Below the pieces are notes generated by a model. That model ran no database searches. It had not been told where the DNA came from and saw only the letters and a program-made list of their open reading frames with translations. 46,703 bases of DNA from Deltaproteobacteria bacterium (lineage in GTDB: Bacteria; Desulfobacterota; GWC2-55-46; UBA9637; GWC2-42-11). Positions 16,448-45,962 of the stretch are shown in pieces. Position 1 is the stretch's first letter. Each line of letters starts with the position of its first letter. The translations under genes were made by a program, and so were the position numbers. The stretch covers positions 1 to 46,703 of the forward strand of contig JACRPW010000043.1 of NCBI GenBank assembly GCA_016223005.1, written 5' to 3'.

Positions 16448-16625
16448 TTAACCCAAAAAATGCAGTTGAAATCGTCATGAGACGCAGAAGAAGCCCTACA
16501 GGCAAGGCGCAGAAAAGATTTTGGCAGAAGGAATATTGGAATATTTCGATGTCAAAATCTCTTTCTGCAACACAGCCTGTAGGGCTGATTTCAAGTTTGT
16601 TAGGATTTTTATAGGGTAAGTTAAA
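16448..16625 (+). mobile_element. Foldback MITE, copy 1 (degenerate right end)
   Basis: Starts with TTAACCCAAAAAATGCA (16448-16464). Its interior, from about 16465 to 16595, is the reverse complement of 20263-20381 in copy 2 with few mismatches. A long internal stem is formed by CCCTACAGGC (16494-16503) and GCCTGTAGGG (16574-16583), continuing into GCGCAGAAAAGATTTTG and CAAAATCTCTTTCTGC. The right terminal repeat is decayed (ATTTTTATAGGGTAAGTTAA). No coding capacity; it would need a transposase in trans. Confidence 0.8.
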
Positions 16626-20215: not shown

Positions 20216-20398
20216 TTAACCCGAAAAATGCATTTGAATATCTATTACGACTTGAAATCAGCCCTACAGGCTGTGTTGCAGAAAGAGATTTTGACATCGA
20301 AATATTCCAATATTCCTTCTGCCAAAATCTTTTCTGCGCCTTGCCTGCAGGGCTTCTTCTGCGTCTCATGACGATTTCAACTGCATTTTTTGGGTTAA
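20216..20398 (-). mobile_element. Foldback MITE, copy 2 (183 bp, intact ends)
   Basis: Left end TTAACCCGAAAAATGCA (20216-20232) and right end TGCATTTTTTGGGTTAA (20382-20398) are inverted repeats with one mismatch. The interior contains the long stem around CCCTACAGGC/GCCTGCAGGG. It matches copy 1 at 16448-16625 in reverse orientation. It has no ORF of its own, lies between mutL and miaA, and its right half overlaps the 5' end of miaA. No target duplication was convincing. Confidence 0.85.
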
Positions 20399-27352: not shown

Positions 27353-27420
27353 AAAGGAGGTGAAAAATCAACTACCATAAAGATTTAAGAGCAGTGTTTG
27401 TTAGTCAAAATAAGGAGGTG
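27353..27420 (+). promoter_or_regulatory. Leader with two near-identical strong ribosome-binding sites
   Basis: AAAGGAGGTGAAA at 27353-27365 and AAGGAGGTGAAA at 27412-27423 lie 59 bases apart. Only the second is correctly spaced to an ATG (27427). The first has no good start codon behind it; a GTG within it would give a six-codon peptide ending at 27380, too close to be its own start. It may be a duplicated leader or a standby site. Confidence 0.5.
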
Positions 27421-27426
27421 AAAGAA

Positions 27427-28362
27427 ATGAAAACAAGGTCGCAGTTAGTAGCATTAACAAGTGCGCTCATATTTGCACTGTTTATTGCAGCACCATTTGC
27501 AGATGCTGCTGAGAAGAGATGCCGCATAGGCAATGAAAAAGTTGAGTGCCCTACGAGGACAGATGCTGAACTGCAAACAGCAGTTGCCAACTTTGATAAA
27601 GAGGCTACAGACATGATGAAGGGCATTGGCGGAAGCACATACGGCATAGCACCCTTTGACTACCTCACCGGCGTCGGTAAGAGGACTACCAAGGCTGACA
27701 CAAAGACCTTCAAGGTTGAAAGCGGTTACGCAAAGGGCACTGGCAGGACAGAGGCATGGGACAGAATTAAGAAACCTGCCTCAGGCGAGGCTATCTACAA
27801 CCAGTGGACAAACAACTGGTCGCCTTCGTTTAAGAGCACTCTGGTTGCTGGCGCAGACCCGAATGAAGGCAAGCAGTGGTATTATGTTTATTGCGTAGGG
27901 TGCCACGGCTGGCTTCTGCACGGTGATGGTCCTAATGCAGTGTATCTTGACCCAAAGCCGAGGATACTTACAAAGGGTTCGTATATGAACAAAAAGACAA
28001 ATGTAGAACTCTTTGCAACAATCAAGGGCGGCGGCGGTTCAGTTGACCTTTCAGAGATTATGCCTGCATGGGGCAATCTTTTACAGGATCAGGATATCTG
28101 GAATGTTATTGCATGGATAAGGGCAAACGCGGATGTAAAGCCAATAACAAGCCTGGAAGACTATCTAAACCCAAAATCTTCATTTGACCCAAAGTCAAAG
28201 GAAAACGCAGTTACTCCATTGAATGCTGCAAAAAGCCCTGAGTTTAAGGATGCACAGGAAACAGTTGAGGCATCGTTGGCAGGCAGAGGCGGGAAGCAGA
28301 AGGGCGCTGGTTTTGTTGAAGGTGGTTTAAGAAAGGCGCCTGAAAAGGTTACAATAGAATAA
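27427..28362 (+). CDS. Periplasmic c-type cytochrome (monohaem, cbb3-like cytochrome c fold)
   Basis: 311 residues. The ATG at 27427 follows AAGGAGGTG; a GTG at 27394 in the same frame is less likely because MKTRSQLVALTSALIFALFIAAPFADA is a full signal peptide. Residues 30-145 are an unassigned N-terminal region (with CRIGNEKVEC, two cysteines that could pair). The haem site CVGCH is at residues 156-160, followed by GWLLHGDGPNAVYL, ELFATIKGGGGSVDL and the axial-ligand MPAWGN at Met212, then QDIWNVIAWIRAN, all typical of class I/CcoP-type cytochrome c. The last 80 residues are charged and probably disordered. It lies 27 bases upstream of the NosZ-like gene and is likely its electron donor. Confidence 0.82.
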   Translation: MKTRSQLVALTSALIFALFIAAPFADAAEKRCRIGNEKVECPTRTDAELQTAVANFDKEATDMMKGIGGSTYGIAPFDYLTGVGKRTTKADTKTFKVESGYAKGTGRTEAWDRIKKPASGEAIYNQWTNNWSPSFKSTLVAGADPNEGKQWYYVYCVGCHGWLLHGDGPNAVYLDPKPRILTKGSYMNKKTNVELFATIKGGGGSVDLSEIMPAWGNLLQDQDIWNVIAWIRANADVKPITSLEDYLNPKSSFDPKSKENAVTPLNAAKSPEFKDAQETVEASLAGRGGKQKGAGFVEGGLRKAPEKVTIE

Positions 28363-28389: not shown

Positions 28390-30081
28390 ATGCAATTTAG
28401 GAAGATTGGTTTTCTAATAGCAGCATGTATAATGCTGGCTGCGGTTCCTTTGGCAGTAAATGCTGCTGAAAGAGACTGGCACATAACAGAAACCAGCCCA
28501 AACGACGCCCCGCTTCAGGATACAATGTTAATGTATAATGCAGGCGGAACAGACGGTTCTGTTGCTGTCTTTGGTGTCCCGAGCATGAGGACATACAGGC
28601 ATATACTTGTTGGTGTTGACCTGCATGAGCCGGTATTCAGCGCAAAGGACAATTCAGGCACAAAGAACCTAAACCCTGACGGAAAATTTCTATATGTAAA
28701 TGACAAGGCTGCAAATACAATAGGTGTAATCAACCTGCAGTTGGGCGCTCTGGAGAGGCTTATAGCATTGCCATTCCCATTCGGTGTCCATCACATATCA
28801 TTAAGCAGGGACGGCAAAAGCCTTTATGCAACAGGTGAACTTACAGGCAAGATGGCAAAGGTTGACATTGCAACAGGCAAGGCACAGGTAATAGACTGGG
28901 GTCCTGCTCCAAGCGCACCTGACTATCTTGATGTAAGCAAGCCGCCGAAAAAAGAAATGATATTCTCAGGCAACTACTATCATTCAACAGTCGGTGTATT
29001 CCAGCCAAATCCATTCAAACTCATAAAAGAGATACCAGTTGGAAAGAACCCCCATGGGACAGATGCAGAGCCAAAAGGCAGGTATATACAGGTTGCAGAT
29101 AAACTCTCTGCAACACTTACAATTATTGATGTGGACACCCTCTCTGTAAAAAAGGTTATACCAGCAGGCGCTGGTCCTCTCCACAATGTGTTTGACGCAA
29201 AAGGCAATGCATATACATCCTGCTTTGTTGCAGACTCTATTGTTAAGACAAACCTTGATAAACTTGAGGTTGTTGATGAATTTCCGGTCCATTACAGGAT
29301 AGGGCATATTGCAGTAACTGATGATGCCAAGTATGTGTTTGCGCTCAATAAGTTTTCTACAGGTCTTTTCAGTCCAACAGGCATCCGTTGGCCTGTAAAC
29401 CACGAGATGATTGATGCGGATGAGAAAAGCCCGACATACGGCAAGTCATTAAAGATTATCCCTGTTGACGGCGAGCCGCATAATGCAAAGATTATCTCTG
29501 CAAACATGATTAAGGATTGGACAATGGGTCAGGCAGAAAAAGGCGGACTTCTTGACAAGCCGTTAACAGAGGTAAGGCCAACGCATGTCAGCGGAAAGAT
29601 TAGTTATCTTCCTGTTGACACAGGCAAGCCTGGCATTACTGTTGCAAAGGACGGCGTAAAAGAGATTCGTGTAAAGGCATTTAGTTACGGTTATGTCCCA
29701 AGACAAATGAGGGTGAACAAGGGCGACAAGGTCAGAATCATCGTGACAAATATAGACAAGGCATCCGGTATCACTAAGAACCCTGATGTTATCATGGGCT
29801 TTACCATATATGGTCCTTATGCAACAAGGACAATGCTGCATATTCCAAGGGGCGTTTCATTGATGTCGGAATTTGTTGCAGATTACGCAGGCGAATATGA
29901 AATCTACTGCGAGACATTCTGTGGACCTCTGCACCTTGAGATGAGGGCGGCATTCTTTGTTGATGACCCAAAGAAGGGTCCTTCAAATCTTGGTGTTGGA
30001 GATTATGATGAGGCTCAGAAGCAGAAACAATTGAATGTCCCTGAAGAACATCTGTCAGCACCAAAACCAGAGATTCTGTAA
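28390..30081 (+). CDS. Divergent Sec-exported nitrous-oxide-reductase-like (NosZ-like) copper protein
   Basis: 563 residues with a Sec signal peptide (cleavage near NAA/ER), a seven-bladed-propeller-like domain (40-400) and a C-terminal cupredoxin (420-525). It follows NosZ blade by blade: GGTDGSVAVFGVPSMR, FLYVNDKAANT, IPVGKNPHGTDAEPKGRY, GPLHNVFDAKGNAYTS and GEPHNAK. Histidines aligned with CuZ ligands are H79, H134, H222, H265, H306 and H364, but the second His of DxHHP is Glu80 (DLHEP). The CuA loop CETFCGPLHLEM keeps C507, C511, H515 and M518, while the upstream CuA histidine (THGF in NosZ) is Met469 (VIMGF). So it may be a variant N2O reductase or a copper oxidoreductase of other function. 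It is shorter than NosZ (about 640), and no nosDFYL genes are nearby. AGAGGGGATG precedes its ATG. Confidence 0.8.
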   Translation: MQFRKIGFLIAACIMLAAVPLAVNAAERDWHITETSPNDAPLQDTMLMYNAGGTDGSVAVFGVPSMRTYRHILVGVDLHEPVFSAKDNSGTKNLNPDGKFLYVNDKAANTIGVINLQLGALERLIALPFPFGVHHISLSRDGKSLYATGELTGKMAKVDIATGKAQVIDWGPAPSAPDYLDVSKPPKKEMIFSGNYYHSTVGVFQPNPFKLIKEIPVGKNPHGTDAEPKGRYIQVADKLSATLTIIDVDTLSVKKVIPAGAGPLHNVFDAKGNAYTSCFVADSIVKTNLDKLEVVDEFPVHYRIGHIAVTDDAKYVFALNKFSTGLFSPTGIRWPVNHEMIDADEKSPTYGKSLKIIPVDGEPHNAKIISANMIKDWTMGQAEKGGLLDKPLTEVRPTHVSGKISYLPVDTGKPGITVAKDGVKEIRVKAFSYGYVPRQMRVNKGDKVRIIVTNIDKASGITKNPDVIMGFTIYGPYATRTMLHIPRGVSLMSEFVADYAGEYEIYCETFCGPLHLEMRAAFFVDDPKKGPSNLGVGDYDEAQKQKQLNVPEEHLSAPKPEIL

Positions 30082-30206: not shown

Positions 30207-31358
30207 TCAGCCCTCTTTTATCATCCAGATACACTCCTTTTTCAAGCAGACAGTTATCTCTTTATTTAATTCTATGTTGAGCCTTCTGAATACTATACTT
30301 GGTATGTCTATCTTAAGGTTAACATTAGGACTGCCCTTTGCTGTGAAATACAATATATAACCTGTTCCCTTTGCCATTATGCCTGATACTGTTCCCTCTA
30401 TAAGATTATCCTGCACACTTCTGTCAAGTGGTCTATCGGTTTTTATTATCATAATCTCTTCGGGTCTTATGCCAAAACATACCTTGTCACCGATATTAAA
30501 ATCAGTATTTTTAATCAGGGAGATTTGCTTATACGGAGGAATCAATTGTCTGGCAATCATAATACTGCCTGTCTCTATTGAATCTATTATAATATTGCTG
30601 TTATCAAGTGATTTTATTACACCGTGAAATATATTCCTTGCACCGATAAACCTTGCAACATTTTTTGTCATTGGTCTGTAAAACACATCTTCCCTTGTCC
30701 CAAACTGCTCAATCCTACCATTATTTATAACAGCAATCCTCTCCCCAAGCATAAATGCCTCTTCCATATCATGGGTTACCAGAAGTGTTGTTATTGGGAA
30801 TCTCTTATGTATTACTATAAGTTCATGCCGTAATTTTTCCCTAACCTGATTGTCAAGTGCTGAAAAGGGCTCGTCCAGAAGCAGTATCTCCGGTTCTGTG
30901 GCAAGTGTCCTTGCAAGGGCTGTCCTCTGTTTTTGTCCTCCTGAAATCTGGGATGGGTGCCTGTTCTCAATACCTGTCAAACGCATGAGTTCAAGGAGTT
31001 CGTAAACCTTGTCTTTTATTTCATGGTGGGGCATATGTGAAATTCCATAGGCAATATTTTCAAATACTGTCATGTGGGGGAATAATGCATAATCTTGAAA
31101 TAGATACCCAATCCGCCTTTTCCTTATTGGGATATCTATGCCTCTTGTTGAATCAAAGATATTTCTTTCGTTTATATTTATACAGCCGGCATCGGGCTTA
31201 ACAATACCAGAAAGCATATTAAGGGTTATACTCTTGCCTGAACCGGACGGTCCAAAGAGAACCGCGATTTCATTATTAAGTTCAAGTCCTATATCCAGAT
31301 GAAAGTCGTGCAGGTGTTTTTTTAGAGAAAACTTCAGCGCCAATCTATTTGCCCTCAT
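30207..31358 (-). CDS. modC: Molybdate ABC transporter ATP-binding protein ModC
   Basis: 383 residues. Walker A GPSGSGKS near residue 37, signature ISGGQKQRTALARTLA, Walker B LLLDEPFSALD, H-loop LLVTHDMEE. After about residue 240 the C-terminal part holds two TOBE-like segments (FHGVIKSLDNSNIIIDS and EGTVSGIMAKGTGYILYF), as in ModC/CysA-type ATPases. Neighbouring modB and the broken modA support molybdate or tungstate. The gap to modB is a heptanucleotide repeat tract. Supplies Mo/W for molybdoenzymes, which fits the TorD-like protein elsewhere in the window. Confidence 0.88.
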   Translation of the reverse strand: MRANRLALKFSLKKHLHDFHLDIGLELNNEIAVLFGPSGSGKSITLNMLSGIVKPDAGCININERNIFDSTRGIDIPIRKRRIGYLFQDYALFPHMTVFENIAYGISHMPHHEIKDKVYELLELMRLTGIENRHPSQISGGQKQRTALARTLATEPEILLLDEPFSALDNQVREKLRHELIVIHKRFPITTLLVTHDMEEAFMLGERIAVINNGRIEQFGTREDVFYRPMTKNVARFIGARNIFHGVIKSLDNSNIIIDSIETGSIMIARQLIPPYKQISLIKNTDFNIGDKVCFGIRPEEIMIIKTDRPLDRSVQDNLIEGTVSGIMAKGTGYILYFTAKGSPNVNLKIDIPSIVFRRLNIELNKEITVCLKKECIWMIKEG

Positions 31359-31428
31359 TTTAGGTATCAGGTATCAGGTGTCAGAAAAACCTAGAACCTG
31401 AAACCTAGCTGCTAGAACCTAAAACCTG
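31359..31428. repeat. Heptanucleotide tandem tract between modC and modB
   Basis: Two adjoining tracts with a 7-base period: AGGTATC AGGTATC AGGTGTC, then AGAACCT GAAACCT AGCTGCT AGAACCT AAAACCT. The modB stop codon (31419-31421) lies inside the second tract. Same style as the tracts at 26998, 44951, 45018 and 45241. Confidence 0.75.
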
Positions 31429-32075
31429 TTTTTAGAAAACCAGTTTACAAAATATATTACAGAGATTGAAAATACTGTTACCATCACTACAAGGATATTT
31501 GCCAGAGATGTGTTTCCTGTCTGGACTGCATCATATATGGCAATCGGCATTGTCTGTGTTAGCCCAGGAATATTACCTGCAACCATAAGTGTAGCGCCAA
31601 ACTCACCGGTTGCCCTTGCAAATGCCATGACTGAGCCTGCAGCAATGCCGCGCCATGCAAGCGGGATTGTGATAGTCTTTAATACCTGCCATTCTGATTT
31701 CCCAAGGAGCCTCGCTGTATTTTCTAGATTTTTATCTACACCTTCAAGTGATGACCGTGCAGGTTTTATAAAGAGAGGAAGGGATGAGATAAATGCAGCA
31801 GCCACAGCCCCCTTCCATGTAAAGACAAGTGTTATGCCAAGTGTATCTTCCAATAGTCTGCCAAGGGGACTGTACCTTCCAAAAAGCACAAGGAGATAAT
31901 AACCAAGGACAGTCGGAGGGATTACCAAAGGCTGCATTATTACGGCATCTAAAATGCCCTTGCCCCAGAAATCCTTTTTTGCCATTATAAGTGCAATCCC
32001 GAGCCCTGATATTACAGTGAAAAGTGTCGCAAAAAAGGATACCTTTAATGTCAGATATAAAGGGAATAAATCCAT
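31419..32075 (-). CDS. modB: Molybdate ABC transporter permease ModB
   Basis: 218 residues with about five transmembrane helices. The permease EAA loop is LLGKSEWQVLKTITIPLAWRGIAAG and is followed by ARATGEFGATLMVAGNIPGLTQTMPIAIYDAVQTG, the ModB signature. N-terminal LTLKVSFFATLFTVISG matches. It starts at 32075, three bases after the end of the broken modA, and its C-terminus (WFSKNRF) runs into a heptanucleotide tract that provides the stop codon. Confidence 0.92.
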   Translation of the reverse strand: MDLFPLYLTLKVSFFATLFTVISGLGIALIMAKKDFWGKGILDAVIMQPLVIPPTVLGYYLLVLFGRYSPLGRLLEDTLGITLVFTWKGAVAAAFISSLPLFIKPARSSLEGVDKNLENTARLLGKSEWQVLKTITIPLAWRGIAAGSVMAFARATGEFGATLMVAGNIPGLTQTMPIAIYDAVQTGNTSLANILVVMVTVFSISVIYFVNWFSKNRF

Positions 32076-32077
32076 TA

Positions 32078-32744
32078 TTAAAACTCTCCCGGCAGTAAAA
32101 ACCCGTATCTTTTCATTATCTGCCTGCTATTAGGACTATTCATATATTCTATAAATCTCTTTGCCTCTTTTTCATTCTTTGCGGCCTTAAGTATTCCAAC
32201 AGATTGATCTATTGGGTTATGGAGGTTGCTGTCAATCAACAAGTATTCTATTTCAGGGACGTTGGCAACAGACAAAGCAACTATGCCTGCCTGCGCGTTT
32301 CCTGTCTGGATAAACTGTAATGTCTGGCGGATATTTTCACCATAAACAAGTTTGGGTTTAATTTTATTCCACAATCCTAGTTTTACAAAAACTTACCCCC
32401 GATTTTTTATTCACAGCAAGGACAATCCTCCCCTGTGCATAAATCTGCTGAGAGTCAGGGAGTATCAATCCGTTTTCTCTTAACCTGTTCATATATCCTT
32501 CATTAGCAGCAAAAAATATGTCAAACGGCGCACCATTTTCAATCTGCATAGCAAAGATGCCTGTAGAGCCAAAGGAAAGCACGGTTTTTATGCCTGTATC
32601 TTTTTCAAATCCTCTAACTATTTCATTTAATGCAAAGGTTAAGTCGCTGGCAGCAGCAATAGTCAATGTCCTTTCGGCTGAATGGACATTTTTGGGGACG
32701 ACCGTTAGTGCTAAAAAAAGTAGGATTGCAGTAAGTGTTCTCAT
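32078..32744 (-). pseudogene. modA: Molybdate-binding protein ModA, broken by an internal deletion
   Basis: Two frames together cover a ModA protein. From the ATG at 32744 (signal peptide RTLTAILLFLALTVVPKNVHSA; ERTLTIAAASDLTFALNEI) the first frame runs to AQGRIVLAVNKKSG then ends out of frame at 32364. The second frame resumes at LGLWNKIKPKLVYGEN and continues through GNAQAGIVALSVA to KRYGFLLPGEF. Compared with typical ModA (about 250 residues) about 40 residues, including the DPEHxPxG segment of the ligand site, are missing around 32375-32400, and the frame is shifted. The rest is well conserved, so the lesion is recent or is an assembly error. As given, no functional binding protein is encoded. 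Confidence 0.85.
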
Positions 32745-32823
32745 CTTACCTAAAGATGTCCTCAAAACTTAAAAAAACATACTGTAAAACAGAATAGAAT
32801 GCAAATAGAAATTGTCTCCCAAA

Positions 32824-42995: not shown

Positions 42996-43040
42996 TTGAC
43001 ATCATTATTGTAATATACTATATACGCACATGCGTATATA
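42996..43040 (+). promoter_or_regulatory. Promoter and palindromic operator of the first arsR-like gene
   Basis: TTGACA (42996-43001), 17-base spacer, TATATA (43019-43024). A perfect 10-base inverted repeat, TATATACGCA (43019-43028) and TGCGTATATA (43031-43040) around CA, covers the -10 and start point. That is the expected site for autorepression by the ArsR-like protein. An ATG at 43030 lies inside the operator and upstream of the likely transcript start. Confidence 0.8.
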
Positions 43041-43047
43041 CAAATCT

Positions 43048-43383
43048 ATGGAAAAGGTCATACAGATATATAAAGCCCTGTCTGATGGAACAAGAATAAG
43101 GATAGTAAATATCCTTCAGGGTAAAAGGCTGTGTGTTAACCGTATAGCAGAGGTCCTTGGGATTCAGCAGGCTAAAATATCCCGCCATCTATTTTATCTT
43201 AAAAATGTGGGTTTGGTTAATAGTGAAAAAGACGGGCTTCGGGTTTACTATACACTGCCAGATGATGGATTATGCCAACCAGTAATAAAATGTCTTAAAG
43301 AATTAAGAAAAGATGTCATAGAACTGGATGAGGATATAAAAAGACTAAACAAAGAGAAGTCGCGCGAAGAGTCGTGCTGTTAA
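43048..43383 (+). CDS. ArsR-family transcriptional regulator 1
   Basis: 111 residues from ATG 43048; the upstream ATG 43030 lies inside the operator and is unlikely to be transcribed. Winged-helix motif LCVNRIAEVLGIQQAKISRHLFYLKNVGLV with the wing DGLRVYYTL. The canonical ArsR metalloid motif ELCVCDL appears as RLCVNRI, so Cys29 remains while the second Cys is Asn31. The protein ends in a Cys-Cys pair (ESCC). It may sense a metalloid with C-terminal thiols, or another signal. It is followed by the torD-like gene 48 bases downstream and shares much sequence with the second ArsR-like protein, suggesting duplication. Confidence 0.88.
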   Translation: MEKVIQIYKALSDGTRIRIVNILQGKRLCVNRIAEVLGIQQAKISRHLFYLKNVGLVNSEKDGLRVYYTLPDDGLCQPVIKCLKELRKDVIELDEDIKRLNKEKSREESCC

Positions 43384-43431
43384 AATTTTTCAAGGCTAAA
43401 GCCTTGAGGGACATAAATCATAGGAGAATTC

Positions 43432-44112
43432 ATGCCTGAAGTTATTGAGAAATCTGACCCGTCAACTATCGCAAAAAGCAGAGCAGGTGTTTATCATCTT
43501 ATTTCAAAGTTTTATTTGAAAGAGGTTTCTCCTGAATTTTTGGCTGTCCTCAAGAAAAAAGAGATGCTGGAATTATTAAATGGTCTTGACGTTGATTTTG
43601 GCAAGGTTCTTTCTAATTTCTCTGACGAGACAAAATTTCTGGATGAACTTGCAACAGAATATGCGGCTCTCTTTATTGTCGGAGGCGGCATTCCGCCTTA
43701 TGAATCAGCGCGTTTGAAAGGGATGTTATGTCAGGAGCCTGAGGCGCAGGTAAGGGCGTTTTATAAAAGATGCGGTCTAACTGTAAAAGATGAAAACAAA
43801 ATATTTTCTGACCATCTTGGTATGGAATTGGAGTTTATGGGTTATCTTGCGGATAAAGAGGCAGAGGCATGGAAAAACAATGATGAAAAGACCGCCGGGG
43901 AGTGGAGCGGCTTGCAAAAAGAATTTTTTACAGAACATCTGGATAAATGGGCATTTGCCTTTTTAAAGGATATGGCTCTATGCGCCTTTCATCCGTTTTA
44001 TAAAGAGGCGGCTAAACTTACAAGATGTTTTCTGGAACTGGAAAAGGAAGACCTGATTGACAGCAAGCAAAATAGGATAGAGTCTGCGGACAAAATATCC
44101 TTGACAACATGA
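43432..44112 (+). CDS. TorD/DmsD-family molybdoenzyme chaperone
   Basis: 226 residues, all-helical. RAGVYHLISKFYLKEVSPEFLAVLKKKEML near the start, the ATEYAALFIVGGGIPPYESARL segment (the Y-x-x-LF...PYESxY-like motif of TorD proteins), and DHLGMELEFMGYLADKEAEAW with HPFYKEAAKLTRCFL near the end. Such chaperones bind the Tat signal and insert the molybdopterin cofactor into DMSO-reductase-type enzymes. Sandwiched between two arsR-like genes, with a polyferredoxin and a multihaem cytochrome behind, it predicts a molybdoenzyme catalytic subunit beyond the window edge. Confidence 0.87.
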   Translation: MPEVIEKSDPSTIAKSRAGVYHLISKFYLKEVSPEFLAVLKKKEMLELLNGLDVDFGKVLSNFSDETKFLDELATEYAALFIVGGGIPPYESARLKGMLCQEPEAQVRAFYKRCGLTVKDENKIFSDHLGMELEFMGYLADKEAEAWKNNDEKTAGEWSGLQKEFFTEHLDKWAFAFLKDMALCAFHPFYKEAAKLTRCFLELEKEDLIDSKQNRIESADKISLTT

Positions 44113-44129
44113 TAAAAAATATTTATATA
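44101..44129 (+). promoter_or_regulatory. Promoter of the second arsR-like gene, inside the 3' end of the torD-like gene
   Basis: TTGACA (44101-44106), 17-base spacer, TATATA (44124-44129). Downstream, TATATC ... GATATA arms about 16 bases apart frame the region before the ATG at 44153, a weaker palindrome than that of the first operator but sharing ATATNCGCAT. Confidence 0.6.
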
Positions 44130-44152
44130 TCCATATCCGCATAAACAGATAT

Positions 44153-44557
44153 ATGAAAAAGATTACTAAAATATATCAGGCGCTTTCAGACGAGACAAGA
44201 CTAAGGATATTAAACCTGCTGCACGAAGGCGAACTATGCGTATGCCATATTATGGATGTTTTGGAAACAGGTCAATCAAAAATATCAAGACATCTTACAT
44301 ATCTTAAAAATGCGGGGCTTGTTCATAATAGAAGAAACGGGCTTTGGGTTTACTATTCATTATCAAAGGATAAATCTTATATACCTCTCTTAAAATGTCT
44401 GAAAGAATTGAGGGTGAGTGTAAGGCAGTTAAAAAACGATAGTGAAAGGATGCTCAAGAAAAAGGACGAGGCTTCTTTATTAGGTATGACTATAGATACG
44501 AAATGTTGTAATACTTCCAAAACAGAAAAGAATAGCAGAACAGAGTGTAAATGTTAG
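44153..44557 (+). CDS. ArsR-family transcriptional regulator 2 with intact Cys pair
   Basis: 134 residues. ELCVCHIMDVLETGQSKISRHLTYLKNAGLV is the winged-helix recognition region; ELCVC (Cys29, Cys31) keeps both thiols of the arsenite-binding ELCVCDL motif. The extended C-terminus adds DTKCCNTSK and TECKC, four more cysteines. This favours a thiophilic metalloid or metal signal such as As(III), though this is inferred. It follows its own promoter inside the torD-like gene and is a paralogue of the first ArsR-like protein. Confidence 0.88.
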   Translation: MKKITKIYQALSDETRLRILNLLHEGELCVCHIMDVLETGQSKISRHLTYLKNAGLVHNRRNGLWVYYSLSKDKSYIPLLKCLKELRVSVRQLKNDSERMLKKKDEASLLGMTIDTKCCNTSKTEKNSRTECKC

Positions 44558-44589
44558 TTTACTAAACAGGAATATTTTCCTGATTGATA

Positions 44590-44677
44590 GGTTTGTAAAG
44601 AGTCAAAAAAGCAGTTTGCATTTTTAATTATTATACCTTTTTAACAAATGTAATTTTTAAAGACTTTTTACAAAACC
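44590..44677. repeat. 88-bp inverted repeat between arsR-like 2 and polyferredoxin genes
   Basis: Left arm GGTTTGTAAAGAGTC (44590-44604) and right arm GACTTTTTACAAAACC (44662-44677) are complementary with small mismatches. A short CAGGAA/TTCCTG stem lies just before it (44570s). May be a regulatory hairpin or a short mobile element; no T-run terminator was seen. Confidence 0.5.
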
Positions 44678-44681
44678 GTCA

Positions 44682-45962
44682 ATGATAAATTTTACACCTG
44701 ATAGATGCCAATCATGGCTTTACAAAAAGGCTGACTGCCGTTTGTGTGTTGAAGCCTGTCCTGTTGAGGGTTGCATAAGTTTTAAAGACTCTCAACTGAT
44801 TGTTAAGGCAGAAGAATGTGTCGGTTGCGGCGTATGCACAACTGTCTGTCCCACAAGCGCCCTGGAAATGGAAGGGTTAACTGACAGAGAACTCTTAAGC
44901 AGGCTTATGGCAGCACTGCCTGAAAACACTACCAGTATTACCCCTCAACCCGCAATCCGAAATCCGCAATCCGAAATTTTCTTAACTATTGGCTGTTCCC
45001 TTGGTTCAAAGGATTCTAAATCTGCAATCTGCAATCTGCAATCTGCAATCTTCATCAATCTTCCCTGTCTTGCTATATTAAAAGAATCACATCTCATATC
45101 TTTAGTCCTTTCAGGCACGCGGAATATTTACCTTGACTTAACCCGATGTGGTGACTGTTCATTCAAACACGGCAGAAAGACTATTGAAAAGACCATGTCT
45201 TATGCCTCAAGTCTTTTGGGGGCGATGGGGTATGAAGATAGACTTCAGACTTCAGACTTCAGACTTCAGACACCAGACCAAAATCAAAACAAGAAGTCAA
45301 TCCTATCATTCAGAAAAAACAAAAAAAATAACATAAAAACCATAACCCCTGAACCTGAATATTCAAGGAGGGAACTCCTGCACTTTTTCAGGGAAAAGGC
45401 TGTAGAAAAGGCGGTAGAGAGGGTTGTGGGTAAGACTAATAGAAAGAAAGGGGGTGGGAAGAAAGCAGGTGATGTTCCAGAGAGAAGGGAAATCCTTCTT
45501 GAGATATTAGGTAAAGAAAAAAACATTGTTCAATCTAATCAGATTAAAGATGGCAGTTTTCCTGTTCATAGTATAAGGATAGATGATGACTGCACATTGT
45601 GCAATGACTGCAATCTTTTCTGTCCAACAGGGGCATTAGCAAAAGTTGAGCAAAAAGCGGAAACAGATGATGAAACAGGAGAGGTAAGGCTCGATTTTAA
45701 TATGTCGCTTTGCATGGGCTGTGAACAGTGCGCAGAACTCTGCCCTGAAGATGCAATGAGCCTTGTAAAGGATATAAATCTATCTGATTTTGCGTCAGGC
45801 AGTGTCCAAACCCTGTTTAGCAAAGTCAGCAAAAAATGTCCTTCCTGCAACAGGGTGTTTTATCCAGAAGACGGTATGGAAGGATGCCTCATCTGCAAGA
45901 AAAGAAAAGATAGTGATGATATGTTTTTTAACGCAATTTTCAGTCAGCAAGATATGCAGTGA
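44682..45962 (+). CDS. Polyferredoxin-like 4Fe-4S protein interrupted by heptanucleotide repeats
   Basis: 426 residues. N-terminal ferredoxin half: Cys19/22/26 (CRLCVEACP) and CVGCGVCTTVCP (Cys46-56). C-terminal half: CTLCNDCNLFCP and CMGCEQCAELCP, then CPSC ... CLIC, a possible zinc-ribbon or rubredoxin-like pair. This could carry about four clusters and act as an electron-transfer subunit or a NapF/MauM-like maturation protein. Three 7-base tandem tracts are translated within it (RNPQSEI, SAICNLQSAI, RLQTSDFRLQT), in the linker between ferredoxin halves, which probably is flexible. The start at 44682 has no clear Shine-Dalgarno. It precedes the multihaem cytochrome gene. Confidence 0.72.
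   Translation: MINFTPDRCQSWLYKKADCRLCVEACPVEGCISFKDSQLIVKAEECVGCGVCTTVCPTSALEMEGLTDRELLSRLMAALPENTTSITPQPAIRNPQSEIFLTIGCSLGSKDSKSAICNLQSAIFINLPCLAILKESHLISLVLSGTRNIYLDLTRCGDCSFKHGRKTIEKTMSYASSLLGAMGYEDRLQTSDFRLQTPDQNQNKKSILSFRKNKKNNIKTITPEPEYSRRELLHFFREKAVEKAVERVVGKTNRKKGGGKKAGDVPERREILLEILGKEKNIVQSNQIKDGSFPVHSIRIDDDCTLCNDCNLFCPTGALAKVEQKAETDDETGEVRLDFNMSLCMGCEQCAELCPEDAMSLVKDINLSDFASGSVQTLFSKVSKKCPSCNRVFYPEDGMEGCLICKKRKDSDDMFFNAIFSQQDMQ
44951..44978. repeat. Heptanucleotide tract a in the polyferredoxin gene
   Basis: CGCAATC CGAAATC CGCAATC CGAAAT: four degenerate 7-mers, in frame with the polyferredoxin-like protein and read as AIRNPQSEI. Confidence 0.75.
45018..45052. repeat. Heptanucleotide tract b in the polyferredoxin gene
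   Basis: Exact tandem 7-mers AATCTGC repeated four times, then AATCTT. Translated as KSAICNLQSAIF. Confidence 0.8.
45241..45279. repeat. Heptanucleotide tract c in the polyferredoxin gene
   Basis: GACTTCA repeated four times, then GACACCA. Translated as RLQTSDFRLQTPD. Confidence 0.8.

Follow-up and report, generated by a model that had tools for sequence, protein, structure and literature searches.

To our knowledge, nitrous oxide reductase (NosZ) is the only established biological sink of N2O. Besides the canonical clades I and II, a clade III lactonase-type N2O reductase family (L-NosZ or L-N2OR) has reportedly been described by He et al. 2025 (Nature 646:152, doi 10.1038/s41586-025-09401-4). 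PMC13274427 cites He et al. 2025 and treats clade III as N2O-reducing; clade III has also entered the literature through PMC13122619, and lactonase-type NosZ-like proteins through PMC11033732 (2024). In canonical NosZ, the copper cluster CuZ is held by seven His residues, two of which are provided by blade 2 of the propeller, and replacing any one of the seven leaves no intact CuZ; in P. stutzeri NosZ, single replacements led to loss of metalation in six of the seven cases and to loss of activity in the seventh (PMC11573801). Moreover, a Ca2+ site, formed by Glu260 and Asp274 in M. nauticus, lies on a loop by which one protomer is clamped to its partner (PMC11573801). Canonical maturation depends on NosDFY and NosL, of which NosD and NosL serve the maturation of CuZ (PMC6530538, PMC7660919).

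The gene considered here lies in a window of 46,703 nucleotides, the whole stretch of DNA that was analysed (contig JACRPW010000043.1 of the Deltaproteobacteria assembly GCA_016223005.1), as a stop-free open reading frame at 28390-30081 on the forward strand, where all features below are located unless otherwise stated, and encodes a protein of 563 amino acids. This protein is a NosZ homologue of full length that is exported by the Sec route; its signal peptide of about 26 residues (28390-28467), read from the sequence and not predicted by a program, is of the Sec type and has no twin-arginine motif. The NosZ homology that the original prediction had seen over the whole length is borne out by the translation, where all the landmarks can be read: DLHE (residues 77-80), NPHG (220-223), GPLH (262-265), EPH (362-364), VIMG (467-470), and the CuA motif CETFCGPLHLEM (507-518). 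By far the best NCBIfam match is NF052460, the clade III lactonase-type nitrous-oxide reductase (L-NosZ), with 687.5 bits (E 7.9e-207) over the whole model (positions 1-480 of 480), 12 bits short of the curated cut-off of 700 bits; the protein is one of 8 among the class's 13 full-length L-NosZ that score just under that cut-off, and the nearest relative, in genome G053, scores 701.7 bits. The clade II and clade I models (TIGR04246 and TIGR04244, cut-off 625) give 197 and 153 bits, respectively, both below cut-off. Among Pfam models, the Lactonase and YNCE propellers match above cut-off and the NosZ propeller repeat is matched as well; Cupredoxin_1 remains sub-threshold (20.1 against 27), the cupredoxin CuA domain having a complete CxxxCxxxHxxM motif and being covered by the NosZ models. 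A lactonase-type propeller fused to a cupredoxin CuA domain is, therefore, present.

Clade III is an already described, recent family, and this protein is another member of it. The proposal of a distinct NosZ clade with altered CuA and CuZ thus holds in that the clade is real and the substitutions are fixed in the sample, but the clade had been described before. The protein resembles the NF052460 family in its whole-length match, in the preferred Glu80 and His135 discussed below, and in the lactonase-like propeller with a cupredoxin domain; it differs in its score under the cut-off and at the CuA His position, for which it has Met and the family model gives a mixture of His and Met that slightly favours His. 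With clade I/II NosZ (TIGR04244 and TIGR04246; P. stutzeri 3SBQ, M. nauticus 9F8X) it shares the order of the fold, six of the seven CuZ His, the Lys/Glu pair, and the CuA Cys-Cys-His-Met set, whereas the identity is only 25-31%, one CuZ His is replaced by Glu and one CuA His by Met, and His135 is gained. Sequence matches in the PDB copy searched are canonical NosZ, with no structure from clade III among them. An AlphaFold2 model built with nine homologues reached a pLDDT of 52, too poor for placing any side chain; Foldseek searches with it listed NosZ structures at the top, which supports the NosZ identity as far as such a model can, with an rmsd of about 18 Å that is of no use for ligands. 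No relatives appeared in a scan of viral contigs, Rfam gave no match in the window, and promoter and terminator scans yielded promoters no better than chance.

The copper sites were compared in a MAFFT alignment with six canonical NosZ and, independently, in an HHalign profile-profile comparison (probability 100, E 1.5e-53), and both place His79-Glu80 opposite the His-His pair of the canonical DxHH motif. His79 (28624-28626) corresponds to the CuZ ligand H129 of P. stutzeri, and Glu80 (GAG, 28627-28629) replaces the second one, H130. Just after it, the protein has a small insertion that canonical NosZ lacks, which had also been anticipated. The remaining members of the seven-His set are present, namely His134 (28789-28791, P. 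stutzeri H178), His222 of NPHG (29053-29055), His265 of GPLH (29182-29184), His306 (29305-29307), and His364 of the Glu362-Pro-His364 triplet (29473-29481), in which Glu362 is the second-shell acid, so that six of the seven canonical CuZ His are found and the second is Glu80. Lys321 (29350-29352) corresponds to Lys454 of P. stutzeri, whose catalytic role is known from canonical NosZ (PMC11573801).

Conservation of these residues was followed in 18 distinct clade III proteins drawn from public genome collections, 62-93% identical to this one and belonging to two phyla, mostly from MAGs labelled Deltaproteobacteria, three of them from the phylum to which a Gallionella genome belongs, and with no members from Firmicutes, Nitrospirota, or Nitrospinota. 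All 18 carry E80, H135, M469, H71, H198, T200, and C278, and all keep the six CuZ His (79, 134, 222, 265, 306, and 364), Lys321 and Glu362 (which match the catalytic residues Lys454 and Glu492 in P. stutzeri), and the CuA residues Cys507, Cys511, His515, and Met518. The survey of homologues for Glu80 and Met469 thus upholds the assignment of both substitutions, on which MAFFT and HHalign also agree. Residue preference across the family, reaching past the sequences sampled, was estimated by scoring point-changed fragments against the NF052460 HMM. At position 80, Glu scores best (214.8), followed by Asp (212.8), Gln (212.4), His (212.1), Ala (211.6), and Leu (210.5), and at position 135 His is preferred over Gly by 5.2 bits; Glu80 and His135 hence look like family-wide traits. 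As a mark of clade III, the pair Glu80 plus His135 is a definition made here and not by the authors of the family, and it describes all 18 proteins and agrees with the HMM preferences.

His135 (28792-28794), invariant and specific to clade III where canonical NosZ has Gly or Ala, is a candidate replacement CuZ ligand. From one blade to the next, the CuZ His residues recur in an unchanged register (VDLH-E, GVH-H, NPH-G, PLH-N, IGH-I, and EPH-N), and the extra His at the second position, found in blade 2 of canonical NosZ (P. stutzeri H129-H130), gives way in clade III to Glu, with a His at the equivalent position in blade 3 (H134-H135). The simplest reading of the alignment is that the extra CuZ His may have moved one blade along, from blade 2 to blade 3; for His135 taken on its own as the supplier of the seventh CuZ His, the chances seem evenly balanced. 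Other candidates were considered. H71, which the original prediction had named together with H135 and H484 as a possible occupant of a missing ligand position, is also invariant in the 18 proteins but is held weakly by the HMM (1.7 bits), and, judging from the repeat register, its position eight residues before H79 would be at the rim end of the outer strand of the blade. H198 sits at the old Ca2+ site, and H484 was rejected as a replacement CuA ligand because it is not conserved in the alignment. The claim that both copper centres are re-liganded therefore stands for the substitutions themselves, but copper binding is a matter of prediction and His135 may restore a set of seven His.

In the CuA domain, both alignments set Met469 (ATG, 29794-29796) opposite the N-terminal CuA His (P. 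stutzeri H583), and the motif Cys507-x3-Cys511-x3-His515-x2-Met518 (29908-29943) supplies the other four residues of the canonical His-Cys-Cys-His-Met set. Met can itself ligate copper. The HMM scores at position 469 slightly favour His (163.9) over Met (163.0), with the other residues tried at 161.1-161.6; this scoring of point-changed fragments, on which the His/Met mixture rests, and not on sequences, suggests that Met469 is a trait of part of clade III and that many members may keep His at this position. For CuA, the substitution by Met469 holds, but the proposed re-liganding is weakened both by the ability of Met to bind copper and by the possible retention of His in many members. No H583M variant is found in the PDB copy among the variants H583A/D/E/N/F/Y/W.

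The Ca2+ clamp has also changed. His198-Ser-Thr200 (28981-28989) occupies the canonical Ca2+-binding Tyr-Asn-Ser-Glu site, whose ligands are known from canonical NosZ (PMC11573801); Thr200 replaces the Glu in 18 of 18 proteins, the loop of blade 4 is shortened, and the clamp loop of clade I/II NosZ is missing.

Maturation genes were surveyed as NosD and NosL. Within the class, 13 genomes encode a full-length L-NosZ, the source genome (G000) included, and neither NosL (PF05573) nor an above-cut-off NosD was found in any of them, whereas both are present in the sole class genome that has a canonical NosZ (G052, L025). Two weak, partial beta-helix NosD matches, in G005 and G023, are similar to matches that genomes lacking NosZ also give. 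Nitrospirota proteins with a lactonase domain are alike in the lactonase-type propeller plus cupredoxin, in belonging to groundwater bacteria, and in the company of denitrification genes, but a Nitrospirota MAG with such a related gene carries nosDFLYX (PMC11033732), and the loss of maturation genes is thus not universal. In some orders, a NosD-like right-handed beta-helix fused to a c-type cytochrome is encoded inside the L-NosZ clusters (L069:10521-11948 and L010:4708-6048), and the source genome has only the cytochrome part of this fusion. ABC genes beside some L-NosZ clusters were considered as NosF/NosY and rejected, as they match GldA-type ABC ATPases.

Upstream of L-NosZ, at a distance of 27 bases, a single-haem c-type cytochrome (27394-28362, CVGCH at residue 167) is encoded, a probable electron donor; 13 of 18 loci have a homologue of it in the vicinity of L-NosZ. 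In sister orders, one cluster contains L-NosZ together with a putative lipoprotein, cytochrome b6, subunit IV/cytochrome c, two Vgb-like propellers, more cytochromes, and CcmH-, ResA-, and CcdA-like proteins; in the source genome, the cytochrome c/b6/subunit IV/Vgb-like block is located on a separate contig (C40:12614-16710). A conserved pair of virginiamycin-B-lyase-like propellers adjoins the bc-type genes in most L-NosZ genomes (L073:14498-16710, which is the genome's own C40, and L069:12781-15035); we know of no role for such propellers in N2O reduction. A putative lipoprotein of about 150 residues without a Pfam or NCBIfam match is encoded directly 3' of L-NosZ in 11 of 18 loci (L003:7854-8306 and equivalents), and its gene is absent from the window. 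The source genome carries NirS and a haem-copper oxidase-like gene that has a cupredoxin partner and resembles sNOR, a label given in this analysis; the source organism could thus plausibly denitrify from nitrite as far as N2, and the cytochrome c, the bc-type complex, NirS, and the sNOR-like oxidase fit N2O respiration.

Elsewhere in the window, molybdate-type ABC genes resembling modC, modB, and modA (30207-32765, reverse strand) lie directly downstream of L-NosZ. Two ArsR-type regulators around a TorD-like chaperone, followed by a multi-[4Fe-4S] ferredoxin-like protein (43030-45962), may belong to a molybdoenzyme locus that the end of the window truncates. A 149-base inverted repeat (16448-16596 and 20250-20398), 99% complementary, with its arms 3.65 kb apart and overlapping ORF ends on each side, is probably a repeated element.

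It is highly probable that the protein is a copper N2O reductase of clade III with modified CuZ and CuA, a judgement that covers this identity and not the ligand-shift step. N2O reductase activity is reported for clade III and, for this protein, we infer it. The seven-bladed propeller would hold CuZ and the C-terminal cupredoxin domain the dinuclear CuA; electrons would pass from a cytochrome bc-type complex to the c-type cytochrome encoded just upstream, then to CuA, and from there to the CuZ of the partner protomer, where N2O would be converted into N2. CuZ would lack the second His of blade 2, the seventh His coming most likely from His135 in blade 3, with Glu80 acting as an extra ligand or as a second-shell acid, and CuA would have Met469 in place of the gating His. 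The alignment, the conservation, the retained catalytic Lys/Glu, and the gene context are observed, whereas we infer the copper-binding side chains, the nature of the cluster, and the electron route. Against this identity count the score under the cut-off, the failure to find NosL and NosD, and the intolerance of canonical CuZ His to replacement.

The alternative that survives best retains the same enzyme and reaction but with a truly different CuZ, in which the carboxylate of Glu80 would serve as a ligand (six His and one Glu) or fewer Cu or sulfide would be present, and which would be assembled independently of NosDFY/NosL. Only the ligand-shift step is challenged by this alternative, and its likelihood, which overlaps that of the preferred explanation, seems somewhat less than even. 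The invariance of E80 and its standing as family consensus, the loss of the Ca2+ clamp loop, and the lack of NosL and bona fide NosD in the 13 class genomes, against both in the genome with canonical NosZ, speak for it. Against it, seven His could still be reached through the additional invariant His135, the beta-helix/cytochrome c fusion occurs in the cluster of some orders, the survey of maturation genes covered NosD and NosL, and the Nitrospirota MAG has a nosDFLYX set. A NosZ paralogue repurposed for other copper chemistry or for electron transfer only, with no N2O reduction, as the original prediction had also envisaged, could account for the ligand changes at both centres, the score below the family cut-off, the missing canonical maturation genes, and the virginiamycin-B-lyase-like propellers of the conserved clusters; it is nonetheless unlikely, being disfavoured by the invariance of Lys321, Glu362, and most ligands, by a genome whose NirS and sNOR-like oxidase would make N2O, and by the N2O reduction reported for clade III (PMC13274427). 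Sequencing error, a pseudogene, or misalignment has a negligible likelihood, its sole support being that the gene lies on a contig of a fragmented assembly: the identical residues in 18 distinct sequences dispose of sporadic errors, converting the Glu80 or Met469 codon into one for His takes two to three base changes and so more than a single-base error, dN/dS against relatives is 0.06-0.11, and the two alignments concur.

Clade III as an N2O reductase being already described, what is still of interest is the chemistry, as nature has conserved an N2O reductase whose CuZ does without a His that is indispensable in canonical NosZ. Such a clade, with one CuZ His missing, no CuA gating His in the lineages sampled, and apparently no NosD/NosL, would make it possible to ask directly what N2O reduction needs, and the paired swap, from His to Glu in blade 2 and from Gly to His in blade 3, opens concrete experiments. 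Tentatively, clade III might have a chemically different CuZ, with a Glu ligand or a His shifted by one blade and possibly another Cu/sulfide content, assembled without NosDFY/NosL. If this were true, biological N2O reduction in general would require neither the seven-His site of canonical NosZ nor the maturation system dedicated to it.
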